This document shows positions 3,738-61,465 of a stretch of DNA of 64,000 nucleotides, piece by piece. The notes beneath the pieces were generated by a model. That model ran no database searches. It was given only the letters and a program-made list of their open reading frames with translations, and was not told the DNA's origin. A program made the translations under genes and the position numbers. The DNA comes from Actinomycetospora lemnae (GTDB lineage Bacteria > Actinomycetota > Actinomycetes > Mycobacteriales > Pseudonocardiaceae): assembly GCF_028737315.1 (NCBI RefSeq), contig NZ_JAQZAO010000006.1:124001-188000 (forward strand). The letters run 5' to 3'. The first letter of the stretch is position 1, and every line of letters starts with the position of its first letter.

Positions 3738-5207
3738 TCACTGCTGGTACGACGACCGCCGCACCTTGCCCGCGTCGTCGCGCAGCGGTCCCGCGGAGCG
3801 TCGCCACACCCGTGGCCGCTTCGCCCGGGACAGCCGCGCGGCGGCGTGGGCGTCGAGGTCGGCGTCGGTGACCTCACCGGCGGCCGGGTCGGTCTGCACG
3901 ATCGCGTGGGGGACCGCGCCCAGGTCGTCGTCGGGCGCCCCGACGACGACGCACGAGACCACCGCCGGGTGCTCGAGGACCGCGGCCTCGACCTCGGCGG
4001 GGTACACGTTCTGCCCGCCGACGACGATCATGTCGCCGGCCCGGTCGGCGAGGTAGAGGTAGCCCTCGGCGTCGAACCGGCCCATGTCGCCGAGCGACTC
4101 CCAGCCGCCCGGTCGGGTGCGGGGCTCCGCGCCGACGTAGCGGTAGGTGACCCGCCCCGGCTCCGGGCGCAGCCACAGCTCGCCGACCTCGTCGACCGCG
4201 CAGCGGCGGCTGCCGTCGAGCGTGCGGGCCTCGATCTCGCCGCCGGTGACCCGCCCGACCGAGCCCGGGTGCGCGAGCCACTCCCGACCCGTGATCGTCG
4301 TGCGCGCCTGCGCCTCGGTGGCCGCGTAGCCCTCGAGCACGCGGTCGGGGCCGAGCCAGTCGATCACCGCGCGCTTCACCGCGGGCGGGCACGGCGCGCC
4401 GATGTGGAACAGGGTGCGCAGGGCGGGCAGCTCCGGTAGCGGACCGGGCACGCGCACCATCCGCCCCATCATCGTCGGCACCGCGTAGATCCAGGTCGCG
4501 GCGTGCCGCTCGGCCAGCTCCAGGGCGCGGGCGGCGTCGAAACGGCCCATGAGGACGACGTGGTTGCCGGTCATGAGCCCGAGCAGGGAGAACAGGTACG
4601 GCGCGTTGTGGAACAGCGGCGCCGTGCACAGCAGCACGCCGTCCGGCTCGATGCGGTACACCGGCGCGCGGGTGGTGACCGACCCCGTCGTGCCCGGCTC
4701 GCCCGCGACGATGACCTTGGGGCGGCCGGTGGACCCGCCGGAGGTCGGTGCCTTCCAGGCGGGTGGGGCCGGCGCGGGCGGCGGTGGGGTGTCGGGACCC
4801 TCGGGCCGGTGCCCGAGCGGCAGGACGGCGGTGCCCGGTGGCGCGACGACCTCGGCCGACGGAGCCAGCCCGACGACGACGGGCGGGCGGACGACGTCGA
4901 GCACGGCGGCGAGCTCGCCCGGCGCGAGGCGGTGCGACACCGGCTGCGGGACGGCGCCGAGCTTCCACGCCGCGAGGGTCAGGGCGTAGTGCTCGGCGAC
5001 GTCGGGCAGGGCGATCGAGACGAAGTCGCCGGGGCCCACCCCGCGACCGGCGAGCTCGTGCGCCCACCGGTTGGCGTGCGCCTCGAGCTGCGCGGACGTC
5101 CAGGTCGCGGTGTCGTCGGTGACCGCGGGCCGGTCGGGGCGCTCGCCCGCCATCCGCGTGAACGCCTCGCCGAGGGGCTCGTCCGGTGAGGCCGTCCCGG
5201 TGGTCAT
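3738..5207 (-). CDS. AMP-binding acyl-CoA ligase (FadD/bile-acid-CoA-ligase-like)
   Basis: 489-residue member of the ANL adenylating superfamily. The P-loop-like TSGGSTGRPK lies at about 155-164, the A5-type EGYAATEAQ and A7-type LGDMGRFDAEGYLYLADR motifs follow, then the hinge and VVGGQNVYPAEVE, and the C-terminal catalytic Lys in the GKVRR segment. The double-Gly P-loop TSGGSTGRPK is the form I associate with steroid/bile-acid-type ligases, but substrate is not deducible. Its ATG overlaps the stop of the upstream carboxypeptidase gene (ATGA), so the two are translationally coupled despite unrelated functions. It converges on the monooxygenase gene with 13 bp between stops. Confidence 0.88.
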   Translation of the reverse strand: MTTGTASPDEPLGEAFTRMAGERPDRPAVTDDTATWTSAQLEAHANRWAHELAGRGVGPGDFVSIALPDVAEHYALTLAAWKLGAVPQPVSHRLAPGELAAVLDVVRPPVVVGLAPSAEVVAPPGTAVLPLGHRPEGPDTPPPPAPAPPAWKAPTSGGSTGRPKVIVAGEPGTTGSVTTRAPVYRIEPDGVLLCTAPLFHNAPYLFSLLGLMTGNHVVLMGRFDAARALELAERHAATWIYAVPTMMGRMVRVPGPLPELPALRTLFHIGAPCPPAVKRAVIDWLGPDRVLEGYAATEAQARTTITGREWLAHPGSVGRVTGGEIEARTLDGSRRCAVDEVGELWLRPEPGRVTYRYVGAEPRTRPGGWESLGDMGRFDAEGYLYLADRAGDMIVVGGQNVYPAEVEAAVLEHPAVVSCVVVGAPDDDLGAVPHAIVQTDPAAGEVTDADLDAHAAARLSRAKRPRVWRRSAGPLRDDAGKVRRSSYQQ

Positions 5208-6415: not shown

Positions 6416-6486
6416 CGGGGCGACAGTAGACGCCGGTCCCGCCCGGCCCGCGGGCGCCGGGCCGGGCGGGACACCCGGATGGGGAC

Positions 6487-16376: not shown

Positions 16377-16419
16377 TCCCCGCCGGGACGCCGCCACCCC
16401 GACGGGCAGAATCGTCGGG

Positions 16420-17322
16420 GTGAGCGCTCCCGCCCCGCGGCTCCTCGGGCCCGCCGACGTGCGCGCCCTGGCCGCCGAGCTGGACCTGCGGCCGACCAAG
16501 CGCCTGGGCCAGAACTTCGTCCACGACGCCAACACCGTGCGCCGCATCGTCCGCCTCGCGGGCGTGGGCCCCGACGACGTGGTGCTCGAGGTCGGCCCGG
16601 GCCTCGGGTCGCTGACGCTGCCGCTGCTCGAGGTGGCGGCGGGCGTCGTCGCGGTGGAGATCGACCCGGTGCTCGCGGGCCGGCTCCCGGCGACGGCGAC
16701 CGAGCGCGCGCCCGGCCGTGAGCTGCGGGTCGTCACCGCCGACGCGCTGCGGCTCGCGCCCGGCGACCTGCCGCTCGCCCCGGACGTGCTCGTCGCGAAC
16801 CTGCCCTACAACGTCGCCGTGCCCGTGGTGCTGCACCTGCTCGCGGTGCTGCCCGGCCTGCGCCGGGGCCTGGTGATGGTCCAGGCCGAGGTCGCCGAGC
16901 GGCTCGCCGCGCGGCCCGGCGAGAAGGCCTACGGCGCACCGTCGGTGAAGCTCGCCTGGTACGCCGACGCGCGCCGGGCCGGGCCGGTCCCGCGTGCGGT
17001 GTTCTGGCCGGTGCCGGGCGTCGACTCGGGGCTCGTGGCCTTCACGCGCCACGACGAGGAGCTCGCGGGCGACGTCGAGCGCCGCGAGGTGTTCGCGGTC
17101 GTCGACGCCGCGTTCGCCCAGCGCCGCAAGTCGTTGCGGGCCGCGCTCGCCGGGTGGGCGGGGTCGGCGCCCGACGCCGAGGCGGTGCTGCGGGCGGCCG
17201 GCGTGGACCCGGGAGCCCGCGGCGAGTCGCTGGGCGTGACGGCGTTCACCGCGATCGCGCGGGCCGCCGGGAGACGGAGCGTCGAACGGAGCACGCCGAC
17301 GGGGGAGCTCGACCATCGATGA
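16420..17322 (+). CDS. rsmA: 16S rRNA (adenine1518-N6/adenine1519-N6)-dimethyltransferase
   Basis: 300-residue KsgA/RsmA methyltransferase that dimethylates two adenines of helix 45 during small-subunit maturation. The substrate-loop GQNF, SAM-binding [10 protein letters not shown] and catalytic NLPYNV motifs are all present. Start GTG at 16420. The C-terminal tail ([15 protein letters not shown]) is encoded by DNA (17269-17314) that resembles a dispersed repeat of this genome, so this tail is probably a late addition. It lies between rpfB and ispE in the order known from mycobacteria. Confidence 0.95.
17269..17314 (+). repeat. Dispersed GGGAGACGGAGC / GAGCTCGACC element in the rsmA 3' end
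   Basis: GGGAGACGGAGC at 17269-17280 and GGGGAGCTCGACC ending at 17314 match the two halves of the 36-bp unit amplified in the cyclase gene, with a diverged middle. Related copies lie at 13665-13697 (tatD), 18746-18773 (ABC-F gene) and 61551-61575 (dehydrogenase gene, minus strand). Confidence 0.55.
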
Positions 17323-31378: not shown

Positions 31379-31385
31379 GACACCG

Positions 31386-31456
31386 CTCCGCCGCCTGGAT
31401 TCGAACCAGGATCATCGGAACCAAAATCCGAGGTGTTGCCCTTACACCACGGCGGA
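31386..31456 (-). tRNA. tRNA-Gln (anticodon TTG)
   Basis: A full cloverleaf can be drawn: acceptor TCCGCCG paired with CGGCGGA and discriminator G, D-stem GTGT/ACAC, anticodon stem TCGGA/TCCGA with loop TTTTGGT, variable TGAT, and T-arm CCTGG-TTCGAAT-CCAGG. The loop places TTG at 34-36, reading CAA. The 3' CCA is not encoded. The polysaccharide locus begins just past its 5' end. Confidence 0.95.
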
Positions 31457-31524: not shown

Positions 31525-32481
31525 TCAGCGCCGCGCGCGCCGCCGGGTCATCGCGAGGACGGCCGCGCCGCCGACGAGGACGAGGAGCGCGCCGGCCGCC
31601 CAGGTCAGCGAGCCGGACGACGACGAGGAGGAGCCGGGCGCCGCGGTGGTCTCGTCCTCGACCGGGGCGGCGGTCGACGCCGTCGCGGGGGAGCGCACCG
31701 ACGCCAGGGTGGGGCCGATCCGCAGGTCCTCGAGCCAGAGACGCCCGTCCTCGTCGATGCCGTCGTCGCGGTAGAGCCCGACCTTCATGTAGTTGGCCTC
31801 GTCGAGCAGCGTGCCGCCCTCCGGGCGGTAGGCGCTCAGGACGTGGTCGGCGCCCCGCCAGACGTCGACGGCGCCGCGGCTCGGGTCGCGCGAGAACGCG
31901 ATGCGCATCGTCACCTCGATCCGGTCGCCACCGCGCAGCGGGCCGAGGTCCTGGAGGTCCTCGCCCTCGGCCGCGAGCATGAGGCGGTTGCCCCGCGCCT
32001 GGAGCGCCACCGGCGGGGAGCCGGAGTCGCCCTGGTGGTGCCACTGGAGCAGGAGCTGCCAGGTGTTCGCGTCCGTCGGGAAGTCGTCCGCGAGCTTGGC
32101 GACGTACGTGTAGTACTGCACGTCGCCCTCGCGCTCCTGGGGGACCCGGGGCTCGACCTCGGTGCGCGTGTCGCCGCCCTCGAGGGTGAACTGCAGCGCC
32201 TGGCGGGCCGGCGCGTCCGGCGAGGCGACCTGCTGGGGCGTGCCGTCCTGCTCGTTGTACTCGGTGCGGTTGAACGCGGCGAGCATGTTCCCGCTCTCGG
32301 GGAGCACCCACAGCGGGCGGTCCCCGGACGGCGCCGGGGACCCCGGAGCCGTCTCGGCCGTGGCGACGGGCGCCGCGACCAGCGGGACCACGAGCGCCGC
32401 CAGCGCGAGGACGACGGCGAGCGCGCCGCTCCTCCCGCGGCGCGCTCGGAGCGGCCGTCGGCTGACGACGTCGTTGGGCAT
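31525..32481 (-). CDS. Secreted, membrane-anchored polysaccharide lyase-like protein (PF14099 type)
   Basis: 318 residues. A signal peptide (hydrophobic 20-42) leads into a beta-jelly-roll-like domain whose landmarks (RTEVEPR, WQLLLQWHHQGDSGSPPVAL, YMKVGLYRDDGIDEDGRLWLEDL) fit the heparin-lyase-I/alginate-lyase-like polysaccharide lyase fold. A Ser/Thr/Ala stretch, a membrane helix (LTWAAGALLVLVGGAAVLA) and a basic RRRARR tail follow, so the enzyme should stay displayed at the surface. Start ATG at 32481. A paralogue without the C-terminal anchor is found at 50268-51161. It is divergent from the priming transferase across 540 bp. Confidence 0.78.
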   Translation of the reverse strand: MPNDVVSRRPLRARRGRSGALAVVLALAALVVPLVAAPVATAETAPGSPAPSGDRPLWVLPESGNMLAAFNRTEYNEQDGTPQQVASPDAPARQALQFTLEGGDTRTEVEPRVPQEREGDVQYYTYVAKLADDFPTDANTWQLLLQWHHQGDSGSPPVALQARGNRLMLAAEGEDLQDLGPLRGGDRIEVTMRIAFSRDPSRGAVDVWRGADHVLSAYRPEGGTLLDEANYMKVGLYRDDGIDEDGRLWLEDLRIGPTLASVRSPATASTAAPVEDETTAAPGSSSSSSGSLTWAAGALLVLVGGAAVLAMTRRRARR

Positions 32482-33021
32482 CGACGGCTCTCCTCGTCCT
32501 GGACGGTCTGCCGACCTCTGCCGGCGGCCCCGGGCGCCGGGCGGACCCGGGCGGGGTCTCGCCGGCTCGTGCTGCAGGTCGACGACGTCGACGATACCGA
32601 TCGCCGAGGTGAGGACCGCGTTGGTGTCGCGGCGCCCGCGGCCGTGACCTCGATCATCACGGCGAGCGACGGCGCCGGCCGCCGGGCCGGTCCCGTTCGG
32701 CCCACCAGCGACGATCCCGCGGCCCTCGGCCGCCGCAGGGGCTGTCGGACCCGGCACGTACCGTGCTCACGGACGGATCGGGCGCCGCGGCCCCGACCCG
32801 TCCGGCCGAGCCACGAACGGGTCCGGCGCGTGACCTCCCCGGCGACGCCCTCGTTGATCGCGCAGGCGGCGGGGGGTCCGAGCGGGTCCGGAATCCGCGC
32901 GGTCACGGAGGCAACCGGATCGGCTCCGAGACGTCCCACGTCCCGGAGAGGTGTCCATGGCCGACGAGGTGTCGCGGGGAGAGGACTCTCCCCGCGCGAT
33001 CGAGGACGCGGGGGCGACCAC
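32482..33021. promoter_or_regulatory. 540-bp divergent region before the priming glycosyltransferase
   Basis: The gap separates the anchored lyase (minus) and the priming transferase (plus). Structured elements seen are GCACG-TAC-CGTGC near 32755-32767, GCGGCC-CTC-GGCCGC at 32719-32733, and a strong 10-bp hairpin at 32973-32996 that lies inside a short leader ORF. Divergent promoters must lie here, but no confident -35/-10 boxes were identified. Confidence 0.4.
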
Positions 33022-33025
33022 GTGA
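32957..33025 (+). CDS. Putative 22-residue leader peptide coupled to the priming transferase
   Basis: ATG at 32957 follows GGAGAGG at good spacing and opens a 22-codon frame (MADEVSRGED... ending AGATT) whose TGA at 33023-33025 overlaps the GTG start of the next gene as GTGA. A 10-bp hairpin with loop GGAC (stem 32973-32982 with 32987-32996) sits in the middle of it. It could be a translated attenuator or a coupling peptide. The alternative is that it is the true N-terminus of the transferase, joined by a frameshift or sequence error. No similar peptide is known to me. Confidence 0.45.
   Translation: MADEVSRGEDSPRAIEDAGATT
32973..32996 (+). promoter_or_regulatory. Hairpin in the leader of the priming glycosyltransferase
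   Basis: CGCGGGGAGA pairs perfectly with TCTCCCCGCG around a GGAC loop, inside the putative leader peptide and 25 bp before the downstream GTG. Translation of the leader would unfold it, which would make downstream initiation depend on leader translation. Confidence 0.5.
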
Positions 33026-34746
33026 GGAACGGACGAGTCGAGGCGGAGCGGGCCGACGTGCCCGCCGGGGGCGGCGTGCCCACCGACCCGCCGATGTCGG
33101 ACGTCGCACGGGCCGAGGTGCCACTGACCGGGGTACCGGCCGCCGAGATGGGCCCGGAGACGGCTCCACCGCTCGACGCGGCCACGCGCGACGCGATCGC
33201 CCGCGAGGCGGCCGCCGCGCGGGAGGCGGAGCTGACCGCGCAGGGCCGCGACGTGTTCGTCGAGCCGGCCCCGACCGCGCCCGGCTTCGTCCGCATCTGG
33301 GAGGACGAGGGGCCGGAGCAGCCGGGCAGCGTCGCCACGGCCACGAGCTGGCAGCGCAAGTTCGCGCTCGCGGTGGCCGCCTCGGACCTCGCCACGCTCG
33401 CCGTGTGCATCCTGCTGGGCGCGCTCATCGGCTTCGGTGACGGCACCGGCCCGCAGAGCTCCGACCCGTGGAACCTGGCGGCGGGGGTGGCGATCCTCGT
33501 GCCGCTCGCGCTCGTCGCGTGCCGCGCCTGGGACCCCCGCACCCTCGGCCAGGGCGCCGAGGAGTGGAGCCGGCTGATCCGCGCCTTCGTCTCCGCGGCG
33601 ATCGTCCTGGGTCTCGGCGGCCTCGCGGTCGAGCGCCTGGGCGTGCGGCCGTGGGTGTTCGGCGTGCTGCCGGTCGCGGGCCTCGCCGCCATGGCCGGCC
33701 GCTACCTGCTGCGCCGCTGGCTGCACCAGGCCCGCAAGCGCGGGCGCGGGATGCTGCCGGTCCTCGCGGTCGGCACCGAGCAGGCGCTGCGCGACCTCAT
33801 CGAGCGCACCCGCCGCGTGCCGCACATGGGCTGGGTCGTCGTCGCGGCCTGCACCCCGACCGGTCTCGGCGAGGAGGGCCAGGGCCACGTCGCCGGGGTC
33901 CCGGTCATCGGTGACCTCGACGACCTGTCCACCAGCGTGGGCAGCGGGCGCTACGGCGTCGTCGCCGTCGCCCCGACGCCGGGCTGGAGCCCGAAGCGCC
34001 TGCAGCGCCTCGCGTGGGACCTCGAGGGCACCGGCTCCGAGCTGGTCGTCGACCCGGGCCTCATGGAGGTCGCCGGGCCGCGCCTGCACGTCGCGCCGGT
34101 CGACGGCCTGCCGCTGCTGCGCCTGACCGAGCCGCGCCTCTCGGGTGTGCCGCGGGTCTTCAAGCTCATGTTCGACCGCGTCACCACCGCGGCGATCCTG
34201 CTGCTCCTGCTGCCGGTCTTCGCGGTCATCGCGTTCGTCGTCAAGCTCGACGGCGGCCCGGTGTTCTACCGGCAGACGCGCGTCGGGCAGCGCGGCAAGA
34301 CCTTCAAGATGATCAAGTTCCGGTCGATGGTGCCGGACGCGGACAAGATGCGTGACGCCCTGCTCGCCGGCACGAACGACGGCTCCGGGCCGCTGTTCAA
34401 GCTGCGCCGGGACCCGCGCGTCACCCGCATCGGGCAGCTGCTGCGCCGCTACTCGCTCGACGAGCTCCCGCAGCTGCTCAACGTCCTCGGCGGCTCGATG
34501 TCGCTGGTCGGGCCGCGCCCGCCGCTGCCCGGCGAGATCGAGGCGTACACCGACGCGGCGAAGCGCAAGTTCCTCGTGCGCCCCGGCATGACCGGGCTCT
34601 GGCAGGTCAGCGGCCGCTCCGACCTGTCGTGGGAGGAGTCGGTCCGGCTGGACCTGCGCTACGTGGAGAACTGGTCGCCGGCGATGGACCTGGTGATCAT
34701 GTGGAAGACGGTCTCCGCGGTGTTCCGCGGCGACGGCGCCTACTAG
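33022..34746 (+). CDS. Polyprenyl-phosphate hexose-1-phosphate transferase (priming glycosyltransferase, WbaP/CpsE type)
   Basis: About 574 residues. It should transfer a sugar-1-phosphate from an NDP-sugar to the lipid carrier, starting repeat-unit synthesis. A disordered ~110-residue N-terminus precedes four hydrophobic segments and a CoA-binding-3-like domain; the C-terminal catalytic Bac_transf domain starts with FKLMFDRVTTAAILLLLLP and has GPVFYRQTRVGQRGKTF, KFRSMVPDAD, YSLDELPQLLNVL and SLVGPRP. GTG 33022 is preferred because codons after it have strong GC3 bias and it overlaps the leader ORF; ATG 33094 is the shorter alternative. The C-methyltransferase gene starts 11 bp after its stop. 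Confidence 0.93.
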   Translation: MRNGRVEAERADVPAGGGVPTDPPMSDVARAEVPLTGVPAAEMGPETAPPLDAATRDAIAREAAAAREAELTAQGRDVFVEPAPTAPGFVRIWEDEGPEQPGSVATATSWQRKFALAVAASDLATLAVCILLGALIGFGDGTGPQSSDPWNLAAGVAILVPLALVACRAWDPRTLGQGAEEWSRLIRAFVSAAIVLGLGGLAVERLGVRPWVFGVLPVAGLAAMAGRYLLRRWLHQARKRGRGMLPVLAVGTEQALRDLIERTRRVPHMGWVVVAACTPTGLGEEGQGHVAGVPVIGDLDDLSTSVGSGRYGVVAVAPTPGWSPKRLQRLAWDLEGTGSELVVDPGLMEVAGPRLHVAPVDGLPLLRLTEPRLSGVPRVFKLMFDRVTTAAILLLLLPVFAVIAFVVKLDGGPVFYRQTRVGQRGKTFKMIKFRSMVPDADKMRDALLAGTNDGSGPLFKLRRDPRVTRIGQLLRRYSLDELPQLLNVLGGSMSLVGPRPPLPGEIEAYTDAAKRKFLVRPGMTGLWQVSGRSDLSWEESVRLDLRYVENWSPAMDLVIMWKTVSAVFRGDGAY

Positions 34747-36029: not shown

Positions 36030-36847
36030 AGGTCGTCCTCTTCTGCGGTGGCTACGGCATGCGGATGCGCAACGGCGACTCCGATGCCCCGAAGCCGATG
36101 CAGATGGTCGGGCCACGCCCGCTCATCTGGCACGTGATGCGCTACTACGCGCATTTCGGGCACAAGGAGTTCATCCTCTGCCTGGGCTACGGAGCCCACC
36201 ACGTCAAGAACTACTTCCTCGACTACCACGAGACCGAGTCGAACGACTTCGTCATGCGTCGCGGCGAGGTCGAGCTGCTCGGCTCGGACATCGCCGACTG
36301 GACGATCCACTTCGTCCACACCGGGCTCGAGTCGCCGATCGGCGAGCGCCTGCGGCGGGTGCGTCACCTGGTGGAGGACGAGGAGATCTTCCTCGCCAAC
36401 TACGCCGACGTGCTCACCGACGCCCCGCTCGACGACATGATCGACCGGTTCAAGGCCTCGGACGCGTCGGCGTCGCTGCTCGCGGTCCCGCCGCAGGCGG
36501 TGTTCCACATCGTGGACATCGACCCGGGCGAGCGGGTCAACTCGATCTACCCCGTCACCGACATGCGGATCCGCGAGAACGGCGGGTACTTCGCGCTGCG
36601 GCCCGAGACGATCGACTACATCCCCGAGAACGGCGACCTCGTCGGCGACGCCTGCACCGCGCTGGCGAAGGAGGGCAAGCTGCTCTCCTACACCTACGAC
36701 GGTTTCTGGCAGCCCGCGGACACCCTCAAGGAACGCAACGCCCTCGAGGCGGCGTACCGCGCCGGCACCCGGCCGTGGATGGTGTGGGAGCGGGAGCCCG
36801 AGCGCTCGCCGCTGGAGGGCCTCGTCGACGAGGCCCTCGGCCGCTGA
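36026..36847 (+). CDS. Glucose-1-phosphate cytidylyltransferase-like nucleotidyltransferase
   Basis: 273 residues, close to RfbF. The nucleotide loop appears as FCGGYGMRMRN, followed by PKPMQMVGPRPLIWHVMRYYAHFGHKEFILCLGY, which is the pattern of CTP:glucose-1-phosphate cytidylyltransferases rather than dTTP- or UTP-using enzymes. The C-terminal FWQPADTLKERNALE also fits. It would supply a CDP-sugar, the entry to branched or deoxy sugars. GTG start overlaps the methyltransferase stop. Confidence 0.85.
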   Translation: MKVVLFCGGYGMRMRNGDSDAPKPMQMVGPRPLIWHVMRYYAHFGHKEFILCLGYGAHHVKNYFLDYHETESNDFVMRRGEVELLGSDIADWTIHFVHTGLESPIGERLRRVRHLVEDEEIFLANYADVLTDAPLDDMIDRFKASDASASLLAVPPQAVFHIVDIDPGERVNSIYPVTDMRIRENGGYFALRPETIDYIPENGDLVGDACTALAKEGKLLSYTYDGFWQPADTLKERNALEAAYRAGTRPWMVWEREPERSPLEGLVDEALGR

Positions 36848-37548: not shown

Positions 37549-38580
37549 ATGCGCGTCCTGCTCACCGGCCACCAGGGCTACCTCGGCACCCTGATGGCGC
37601 CGCAGCTCACCGAGGCGGGGCACGAGGTCACCGGCCTCGACTCGGGCCTCTACGCCGACTGCGTGCTCGGCGAGCTGCCCGCCCCCGAGCCGCCGGCGCT
37701 GGCCGTCGACCTGCGCGACGTCACCGTCGACCAGCTCGCCGGCTTCGACGCCGTCGTGCACCTCGCGGCGCTGTCGAACGACCCGCTCGGCGCGCTGGCG
37801 CCCCAGCACACCTACGACATCAACCACCACGCCTCCACCCGCCTGGCGCGTCTGGCGAAGGAAGCCGGGGTCGGTCGCTTCGTCTACGCCTCGACCTGCT
37901 CGGTGTACGGCGCCTCGGGCACCGAGGACGTGCTCGACGAGGAGGCGCCGATGAAGCCGGTGACGCCCTACGCCGAGTCGAAGGTGCGCGTCGAGGCCGA
38001 CCTCGTCGACATGGCCGACGACGACTTCGTGCCGGTCTCGATGCGCAACGCCACCGCGTTCGGGTTCTCGCCGCGGCTGCGCGCCGACATCGTGCTCAAC
38101 AACCTCGTCGGGCACGCGCTGCTGTCGAACCGCATCCTCGTCATGAGCGACGGCACGCCCTGGCGCCCGCTCGCCCACGCCCGCGACATCGGCGGCGCCG
38201 TGGTCGCGGCGCTGGCGGCCCCGGCGGACGCCGTGCGCGCGCAGGCGTTCAACGTGGGCTCGACGGAGAACAACGTGCAGGTCCGCGACATCGCCGACGC
38301 CGTCAAGGTCGCGGTGCCCGAGGCCGAGCTCGTCATCACCGGCGAGACCGGCGGTGACCCCCGCTCCTACCGGGTCGACTTCACCAAGATCGGCAAGTTC
38401 CTGCCCGACTTCCGCGCCGGCTGGACGGTGGCCGACGGGGCCGCGGAGCTGGTCCGGGAGTACCGCGCCCGCGGGCTGACCCAGGAGGCGTTCGACCGGC
38501 GCTTCACCCGCCTCGCCGTCCTCAAGGACCGCCAGGCGGCCGGCTCCCTCGACGCGACGCTGCGCCCCGCCGGCGGCTGA
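37549..38580 (+). CDS. Extended SDR: NAD-dependent nucleotide-sugar epimerase/dehydratase
   Basis: 343 residues. The N-terminal NAD motif is TGHQGYLG, the active-site serine/threonine region is YASTCSVYG and the catalytic pair is YAESK. It falls in the extended SDR class of NDP-sugar epimerases/dehydratases. With no other 4,6-dehydratase in the module, this gene is the candidate to create the 4-keto group needed by the C-methyltransferase. A ribosome-binding AAGGGGGGAG lies just before its ATG. A strong terminator-like hairpin includes its stop codon. Confidence 0.88.
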   Translation: MRVLLTGHQGYLGTLMAPQLTEAGHEVTGLDSGLYADCVLGELPAPEPPALAVDLRDVTVDQLAGFDAVVHLAALSNDPLGALAPQHTYDINHHASTRLARLAKEAGVGRFVYASTCSVYGASGTEDVLDEEAPMKPVTPYAESKVRVEADLVDMADDDFVPVSMRNATAFGFSPRLRADIVLNNLVGHALLSNRILVMSDGTPWRPLAHARDIGGAVVAALAAPADAVRAQAFNVGSTENNVQVRDIADAVKVAVPEAELVITGETGGDPRSYRVDFTKIGKFLPDFRAGWTVADGAAELVREYRARGLTQEAFDRRFTRLAVLKDRQAAGSLDATLRPAGG

Positions 38581-38595
38581 GCGGCCGCCGGCGGG
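38566..38595. terminator. Bidirectional terminator hairpin spanning the SDR stop codon
   Basis: CCCGCCGGCGGC and GCCGCCGGCGGG form a perfect 12-bp stem around a TGAGCG loop that contains the SDR TGA stop. It lies between convergent genes and could serve both. No T-tract is present, as is common in high-GC actinobacteria. Confidence 0.65.
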
Positions 38596-57543: not shown

Positions 57544-57576
57544 GACGGCGGGAGGGCCCGTGGCCCTCCCGCCGTC
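57544..57576. terminator. Perfect 15-bp bidirectional terminator hairpin
   Basis: The arms 57544-57558 and 57562-57576 are perfectly complementary (GACGGCGGGAGGGCC-like, 15 bp) around a three-base loop. It sits between the converging epimerase (+) and Wzc-like (-) genes, 26 bp after the first stop and 26 bp before the second gene's stop. No U-tract. It is the strongest hairpin I saw in the window. Confidence 0.85.
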
Positions 57577-60268: not shown

Positions 60269-61465
60269 TCAGCGTCCCTGCATGGCCGACTCGTAGGCCG
60301 CCAGCAGTTCCTTCTCGGAGTTCGTCCAGGAGAGTGGCCCGGAGACGCGCTCCGTGCCGATCTCGCCCATCGCCCGCCGACGACGGGGGTCGTCGAGCAG
60401 CTCGGACACGAGGCCCGCGAACTCGCCGACGTCGTTGGGGCGGGCGTAGACCGCCGCCTCCCCGGCCGAGACACGGGCCTCGACCAGGTCGAACGACACC
60501 ACCGGCCGCCCCATCGCCATGTACTCCATGATCTTGTTCATGGTGGACACGTCGTTGAGCGGGTTGCGCGGGTCCGGCGCGAGGCAGACCGACGCGGTGG
60601 ACAGGTGACGCAGCACCTCCTCGTCGGAGATGCGGCCGGTGAAGGTCACCCGGTCGTCGAGCCCGTAGGCGTGCGACAGGGCGACGACGTCGTCGAAGGC
60701 GTCGCCGGTGCCCATGAAGACCGCGTGCCAGTCGTCGCGGCGCTCGGCGAGCTGCGCGAGCGCGCGGATCGCGTAGTCGACGCCGTCCTGGGGGCCCATG
60801 ACGCCGAGGTAGCAGAGCAGGTGCTCCTTGCCCCGCGCCAGCGCCGGCTCGGGCTCGCCGAGGCGGAAGCGCTCGATGGCGGGCGCGCTGCGCACGACGA
60901 ACGTGTCCTCGACGGGCACCCGCCCGCGGCCGGTGGCCACGGCGCGGTAGCTCTCGTTGGTGGCGATGACCGTGTCCGCGGTGCGGTAGGTCGCCCACTC
61001 GAGCAGCCGCATGCCCCAGTACATCGAGTCCTTCTTCTCGCGGAAGCGCGAGAGGTAGAGCTCGGGGACGAGGTCGTGCTGGTCGAAGATGACCCGCGCA
61101 CCGCGCGCCTTGGCCCGCAGCGCGGGCAGGAACAGCAGGTCCGGCGGGTTGCACAGGTGCACGACGTCGACCGGCGCGCGCTTCTGGATGCGCTTGAGCA
61201 GCCGGTTGGTGTGCCAGAGGGCGGTGCCGTACTCCTTGAGGTAGCCCTGGGGCCCCCCGGTCGCCGCCTCGAGCGGGTAGCGGTGGATCCGCACCCCGTC
61301 GATGACGACCTCGGTCTCGGTGTCCCGCTTCGTGCCCTGCGGGCAGATCACCTCGACCTCCCACCCGTGCCCGGTGAGGGTCTGGCACTCCTGCCAGACC
61401 CGCCGGTCGAAGGGGACCGAGAGGTTCTCGACGATGATCAGGGCTCTACCAGGCAAGGCCGACAT
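60269..61465 (-). CDS. Family 4 glycosyltransferase
   Basis: 398 residues. Its start, RALIIVENLSVPFDRRVWQECQTLTGHGWEV, is the pattern of GT4 enzymes in exopolysaccharide and O-antigen loci (WbuB/WcaI-like, with the FDRRVW block). Donor-binding half: LAPDPRNPLNDVSTMNKIMEYMAMGRPVVSFDL, where NKIMEYMAMG replaces the common E-x7-E arrangement. ATG 61465 lies inside the end of the dehydrogenase gene (20-bp overlap), so the two are co-transcribed. Confidence 0.9.
   Translation of the reverse strand: MSALPGRALIIVENLSVPFDRRVWQECQTLTGHGWEVEVICPQGTKRDTETEVVIDGVRIHRYPLEAATGGPQGYLKEYGTALWHTNRLLKRIQKRAPVDVVHLCNPPDLLFLPALRAKARGARVIFDQHDLVPELYLSRFREKKDSMYWGMRLLEWATYRTADTVIATNESYRAVATGRGRVPVEDTFVVRSAPAIERFRLGEPEPALARGKEHLLCYLGVMGPQDGVDYAIRALAQLAERRDDWHAVFMGTGDAFDDVVALSHAYGLDDRVTFTGRISDEEVLRHLSTASVCLAPDPRNPLNDVSTMNKIMEYMAMGRPVVSFDLVEARVSAGEAAVYARPNDVGEFAGLVSELLDDPRRRRAMGEIGTERVSGPLSWTNSEKELLAAYESAMQGR

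Follow-up and report, generated by a model that had tools for sequence, protein, structure and literature searches.

A conserved hairpin in a putative structured leader of the Actinomycetospora priming sugar transferase gene, with fused and split leader frames among sister species

Whether a short open reading frame that carries a perfect hairpin and closes exactly on the start codon of a sugar transferase gene takes part in the expression of that gene, or merely precedes it, is the question raised by a locus of Actinomycetospora lemnae contained in our window, i.e. the whole 64-kb stretch of DNA that was analysed and to which all positions refer. The leader ORF (32957-33025, + strand) starts at an ATG (32957), comprises 22 sense codons (MADEVSRGEDSPRAIEDAGATT) and terminates at a TGA (33023-33025) that overlaps the transferase GTG (33022-33024) in the tetranucleotide GTGA. 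The leader Shine-Dalgarno sequence, GGAGAGG (32945-32951, +), lies 5 nt ahead of the ATG, and four of the nine close relatives carry GGAAAGG at this position. Inside the leader there is a perfect 10-bp hairpin (CGCGGGGAGA-GGAC-TCTCCCCGCG, loop GGAC; 32973-32996, +), enlarged by the pairing of GGT (32968-32970) with ATC (32999-33001) to the conserved stem (32968-33001, +) identified by unsupervised consensus folding and pair counts. The 22-codon frame with its ribosome site and the hairpin, both reported in a preliminary description of this sequence, were confirmed. The same description envisaged a +1 shift joining the leader to the transferase; the two start codons are 65 nt apart (65 mod 3 = 2), so that joining both frames takes a -1 (or +2) shift. 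The overlap itself calls for caution: the transferase start stands in an xTGA context in 18/18 genus genomes and 82% (7532/9134) of the 22-codon stretches sampled from the window contain no stop codon, hence about one third of upstream frames would end on the overlap. The GTGA arrangement is therefore weaker evidence than its appearance suggests.

Pfam identified the downstream gene (33022-34746, +) as a priming-type sugar transferase by the Bac_transf domain (PF02397) over residues 381-568 (E 1.3e-66). Its frame encodes 574 amino acids, ending at 34743 with the stop codon extending to 34746, and was found in 18 of 18 Actinomycetospora genomes. The tblastn matches to relatives begin at residue 76-79 in 13 out of 17 cases and at residue 32-50 in the other 4. 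The first ~76 residues (33022-33249) are hypervariable in length and sequence, the rest of the protein being 92-99% identical among the same species, and the N-terminus of the sister species resembles that of the window transferase in little past the first few codons. Immediately upstream, a G-run at 33010-33014 (+), located 7 nt before the GTG, is the candidate Shine-Dalgarno of the transferase; a G-rich GGGG(G)CGA stretch precedes the GTG or ATG start in all 18 genomes, including L005, where the GTG has been lost and the following codon is ATG. As the GTG thus has a usable G-run of its own, coupling to the leader is not required for its use.

The relation between the two frames was followed on a tree of the transferase core, which separates 10 close species (that of the window included) from 8 distant ones, both groups with 100/100 support, and places the window beside A. 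straminea (L002), which is also the nearest named species in the sequence search, at 99% in the matched core. In all 18 genomes, one or more start codons lie between the promoter motif and the GTG. All nine other close species (9/9) have an upstream start, the one nearest the hairpin, that shares the reading frame of the transferase and adds an N-terminal extension, in most cases ...(H)DGGDVxNGR/Q; five of them (L005, L006, L008, L009 and L010) retain the ATG of the window's leader in this frame. This ATG is missing from L002 and L007; that of L004 stands in another frame and opens 19 aa that terminate on the GTGA overlap, and L003 has an ATG at a comparable position, also out of frame, which opens 14 codons with the stop 20 nt before the GTG. 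Frames from other starts end on the overlap in L002 (18, 8 and 5 codons) and L003 (5 codons). On the other side of the tree, seven of the eight distant species possess a separate leader of 45-52 codons with a GGAGGTG-type Shine-Dalgarno ending exactly on GTGA, the leader of the eighth (L011, a 59%-complete genome) being in frame with the transferase. The leader frame relation is therefore not conserved across the genus, and the coupling leader postulated beforehand is plausible and unproven, the separate GTGA leaders of 7/8 distant species speaking for it and the fused frames of the nine nearest relatives against it.

What distinguishes the window from its relatives is a net 5-nt insertion near the G-run and the GTG, in our reading +2 on the 5' side of the G-run and +3 on its 3' side, ahead of the GTG. 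The insertion moved the leader frame onto the TGA and gave the G-run its 7-nt spacing to the GTG. The split leader is most simply explained as a derived state within the fused clade that reverted to the layout of the distant one. The idea that the leader is the real N-terminus of the transferase would accordingly hold for its origin, most simply an in-frame extension, and not for its present state, as the insertion has split the frames and a restart at the GTG suffices. A hypervariable tail covering the first ~75 residues would tolerate such a switch between fused and split forms, either outcome being harmless. A sequencing error was considered as the source of the split frame and is unlikely in view of the net +5 together with the many substitutions relative to the sister species. 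Nine indel events were counted from the leader start to the GTG, 7 of them without effect on the frame (binomial 0.008 against 1/3), a rough figure from a hand count of few events.

The hairpin was first compared with chance expectations in the window itself. A stem as long and perfect did not arise in any of 400 dinucleotide shuffles made from the 62 nt that precede the GTG. Nevertheless, perfect stems of at least 10 bp number 9 in the 64-kb window, against a mean of ~3 in 20 Markov copies, so that they are not rare in it, and the folding stability of the 121-nt stretch 32940-33060 does not exceed that of its shuffles (z +0.67, 149/200 shuffles as good). More informative were the covariation alignments (A2 and A5), made of 7 of the 10 close species with a gap-free stem region and excluding L004, L005 and L007, whose indels kept MAFFT from lining up the stems. 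Over 13 stem pairs in the 7 species, 92.3% of the cells pair and 6 pairs carry changes in both partners (9 cells in total), values that 0/500 shuffles attain; sliding the stem partner by 1-3 columns left 0-3 doubly changed pairs. RNAalifold recovered the same fold when no structure was given (12 pairs, 6 of them doubly changed). Among 2000 column permutations, one matched the fold energy and 13 reached 6 doubly changed pairs, and among 407 gap-free windows of coding alignments of the same species 26 reached the energy and none reached 6 such pairs, the latter being a lenient control with a mean identity of 94% versus 80% in the leader and up to 5 doubly changed pairs in its most divergent windows. 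A covariance model built from the seven sequences recovered the three left-out close species as best matches (E 2.7e-15, 3.5e-12 and 1.1e-9). Folded singly, 10/10 close species form a stem-loop around the same hairpin and 9/10 z-scores are negative, that of L008 giving no folding signal by itself (z +0.12); a perfect stem longer than expected at the 5% level appears in only three of the ten taken one by one. Judged from these comparisons among 7 related sequences, the hairpin of the close relatives is a conserved, covarying structure, with compensatory changes above the controls in 7 of 10 species. The alignment of orthologues, advised in advance as a check, spoke in both directions: it returned the leader fused in frame in the nine nearest relatives, an outcome named beforehand as refuting, and the hairpin conserved and covarying in close ones.

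GAGGT and a GTG or ATG start fall inside the stem in most close relatives; the 5' arm of the window hairpin is without a start codon. In the distant clade a 9-pair stem enclosing the leader's Shine-Dalgarno can form in 8/8 species with all 9 pairs made, and a single pair varies, in a compensatory manner (L012), with 67/500 shuffles scoring as high; this outer stem is only suggestive of a conserved structure. Rfam returned no match at gathering score in 32200-33700 and only three sub-threshold ones, among them Acido-1 at 32937-32996 (18.4 bits versus 50, E 1.1). Taken together, the leader stretch with its hairpin is probably a real RNA control element.

Further copies of this element were sought with the covariance model R1. 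In the 18 genomes of the genus, with the 150 best first-look candidates scored in each, clear matches were obtained only at the transferase locus of the 10 close species, the next ones being weak (E ~0.001 or worse), and the transferase locus of the distant clade was not recovered. In 150 genomes of the family, with 31 candidates scored in each, 35 had matches with E values of 0.05 or lower; outside the orthologues, none was stronger than E 3.5e-5. Three non-orthologue matches of the family were inspected and are probably chance; two lie within long open frames, one of which we take to be glmS from the way it reads. Within the genomes searched, the element appears confined to the transferase gene and to Actinomycetospora. 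The third of the inspected matches, a weak one (E 2e-4) from another genus of the family (L098:1501-1569), covers the initial codons of a frame with a GTG that likewise overlaps the stop of the preceding frame (GTGA).

If the leader is translated, does its peptide matter? The four distant leaders of equal length differ at codon positions 1, 2 and 3 by 48, 52 and 50 substitutions (summed over 6 pairs, the last 24 nt omitted), and seven leaders compared in 21 pairs by 185, 232 and 215, the latter from a rough gapless comparison. The compared substitutions thus lack an excess at the third position, and translation of the leader is for this reason not evident at the protein level. No peptide shared between the leaders of the close and distant clades was seen. 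The leader peptide therefore does not show clear selection and looks unimportant, as far as these substitutions tell. The lack of codon-position bias, together with the frame-keeping indels, fits a role of translation in cis better than a sensing peptide. No T run follows the hairpin (the sequence beyond 32996 is CGATCGAGGACGC), so it is not an intrinsic terminator, and the translated attenuator suggested in the preliminary description finds backing neither here nor in the codon positions. In the distant leaders (L011-L018) about 30 nt are nearly invariant, third codon positions included (CGCACGGGCGACGATCGACGTCGGGCGACGG in L015, L015:3175-3273), which suggests a separate RNA or DNA element.

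On the other side of the leader, the motif GGCAACC (32910-32916), 15 nt, CGTC (32932-32935) forms a putative ECF-sigma-like promoter (32910-32935, +) that ends ~20 nt ahead of the leader ATG. Promoters of this class follow a rule of AAC at -35 and CGTC/TC at -10 with a spacing of ~16 nt. CAACC-N15/16-CGTC occurs upstream of the transferase orthologue in 18/18 genus genomes. The short pattern alone has 64 sites in the genome versus 48 for the reversed control; being so common, it supports a promoter through its conserved position. The pattern GCAACC-N14-17-CGT(C/T) was absent from up to 700 nt before the match start in 26 loci of in-genus paralogues or other genera, a set that includes one gene fetched twice (L019 = L093). 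The motif resembles ECF-sigma promoters and would presumably be used as one. One gene set under such control is cwg, the cell-wall glycan operon. In Streptomyces, the targets of the ECF factor sigma-E such as cwg show AAC within their -35 and TC within their -10 element (PMC6767563), as does the putative leader promoter; unlike those promoters, the latter is assigned from its motif and conserved position.

The explanation that we favour, and to which we would give an even chance, is a structured leader that loads ribosomes and couples its own translation to that of the transferase. An ECF-sigma-type promoter would make the priming-transferase mRNA with a 5' end close to the leader Shine-Dalgarno; ribosomes would enter at this upstream site, translate the short leader and melt the conserved hairpin. 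In the window strain they would terminate at the TGA (33023) and reinitiate at the GTG (33022) that it overlaps, assisted by the G-run 7 nt ahead of this start; in the close relatives, the frame opened upstream would continue straight into the transferase. The leader would thus work in cis through its position and structure and not through its peptide. Promoter use, leader translation, coupled restart and a regulatory role of the hairpin are what we infer from the genomes compared.

The nearest tested parallel that we found is ppe2 of Mycobacterium tuberculosis, whose expression requires translation of a uORF with an AUGA overlap; termination-reinitiation is the main route, and there are signs of a minor frameshifted fusion (PMC11260477). 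Both are actinobacterial structured leaders in which the stop of a short ORF lies over the gene start (NUGA) and the downstream gene uses another frame. A B12 riboswitch accompanies the ppe2 uORF, and dependence on translation of this uORF was demonstrated with reporters (PMC11260477); by contrast, the Actinomycetospora leader has no Rfam match at threshold, its putative coupling is deduced from sequence and its frame relation differs from one species to another. Overlaps of stop and start codons are widespread, and for the ATGA/TGATG gene pairs tested coupling has been demonstrated (PMC6728339). These pairs share with our locus the overlap and an SD-like stretch inside the upstream frame, and differ in being pairs of genes, whereas the upstream frame here is a short peptide of no visible conservation. 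A report of the Actinomycetospora transferase leader was not found in the open-licence PMC literature. From the comparison it would be an ordinary kind of conserved structured leader, the uncommon twist being the coexistence of fused and split frames among sister species.

The main rival to the coupling reading is an independent start of the transferase at GTG 33022, with an incidental leader ORF and a hairpin serving as a 5' UTR element for stability or protein binding, an explanation that we regard as possible, if somewhat unlikely. It would account for the xTG start and the G-run kept in 18/18 genomes regardless of the upstream frame, for the 7-nt spacing of the G-run in the window and for a leader devoid of codon-position bias, but it leaves aside the strong leader Shine-Dalgarnos of the distant clade, the mostly frame-keeping indels (in our rough count) and the ATG that is in frame in five close relatives, four times preceded by GGAAAGG. 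It is also tempting to think of a genus-specific RNA switch, a doubtful and rather unlikely proposal in which the stem-loop over the leader Shine-Dalgarno and start would gate ribosome entry upon a signal, be it temperature, a protein or a metabolite, and so gate the first committed step of polymer synthesis. In most close relatives the stem-loop lies over, e.g., GAGGT and, in its 5' arm, GTGG or ATGG, and on this reading the fused tail and the split leader with its GTGA restart would interchange freely, as only the passage of ribosomes would count. An attenuator sensing its peptide or codons, in which a ribosome stalled on the leader alters the fold further downstream, would match the layout of short ORF, hairpin and structural gene as well as the RTGD-RRR stretch conserved in distant leaders; the equal distribution of changes over the three codon positions, the lack of a peptide seen in common between the two clades, the missing T run and the fused frame of nine relatives make it very unlikely.

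The remaining alternatives concern the nature of the hairpin and of the junction. Template switching perfects imperfect inverted repeats and mimics compensatory change, and the hairpin might be its functionless product: the stem of the window is fully paired and the most different in letters from the other six, and perfect stems are ~3 times commoner in the window than in its Markov copies. Such an origin is nonetheless distinctly unlikely, since the close species share the position of the stem with differing letters and G-U pairs, and the outer GGT/ACC pairs are present too. An inverted repeat situated ~40 nt past the -10 of the window, just 3' of the promoter, could equally be a palindromic DNA operator; we consider this highly improbable, as the letters of the arms vary between species and the pairing is kept, which suits RNA better than a protein reading letters. 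The most improbable of all is a programmed -1 frameshift providing a leader-transferase fusion in the window strain. Relatives are indeed fused in frame, the leader frame crosses a GGGGG tract and a minor frameshifted fusion is reported for ppe2 (PMC11260477), but the hairpin stands upstream and not downstream of the tract, and a start codon in the right frame makes the shift unnecessary.

Should the coupling reading be right, Actinomycetospora would offer a small natural series of species that carry one and the same leader either as an extension of the transferase N-terminus or as a coupled ORF of its own, and the step between fused and split leaders would become open to study. It would also provide a handle on the control of polysaccharide synthesis in this genus, and the annotation of start sites would differ among sister species.

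Other features of the window deserve mention. A perfect 12-bp stem with a loop of 7 (32418-32448) lies early in a divergent polysaccharide-lyase frame (- strand), near its probable start, in a placement similar to that of the leader hairpin; DNA similarity to A. straminea stops at 32445. Other perfect stems of 10-15 bp were located at 3924-3950, 6436-6472, 16395-16422, 36815-36838, 38566-38595, 57544-57576 and 61378-61401; together with the leader hairpin and the 12-bp stem they make up the nine of the window. Finally, a tRNA-Gln (TTG) occupies 31385-31456 (- strand), and the open frames listed over it are likely artefacts.
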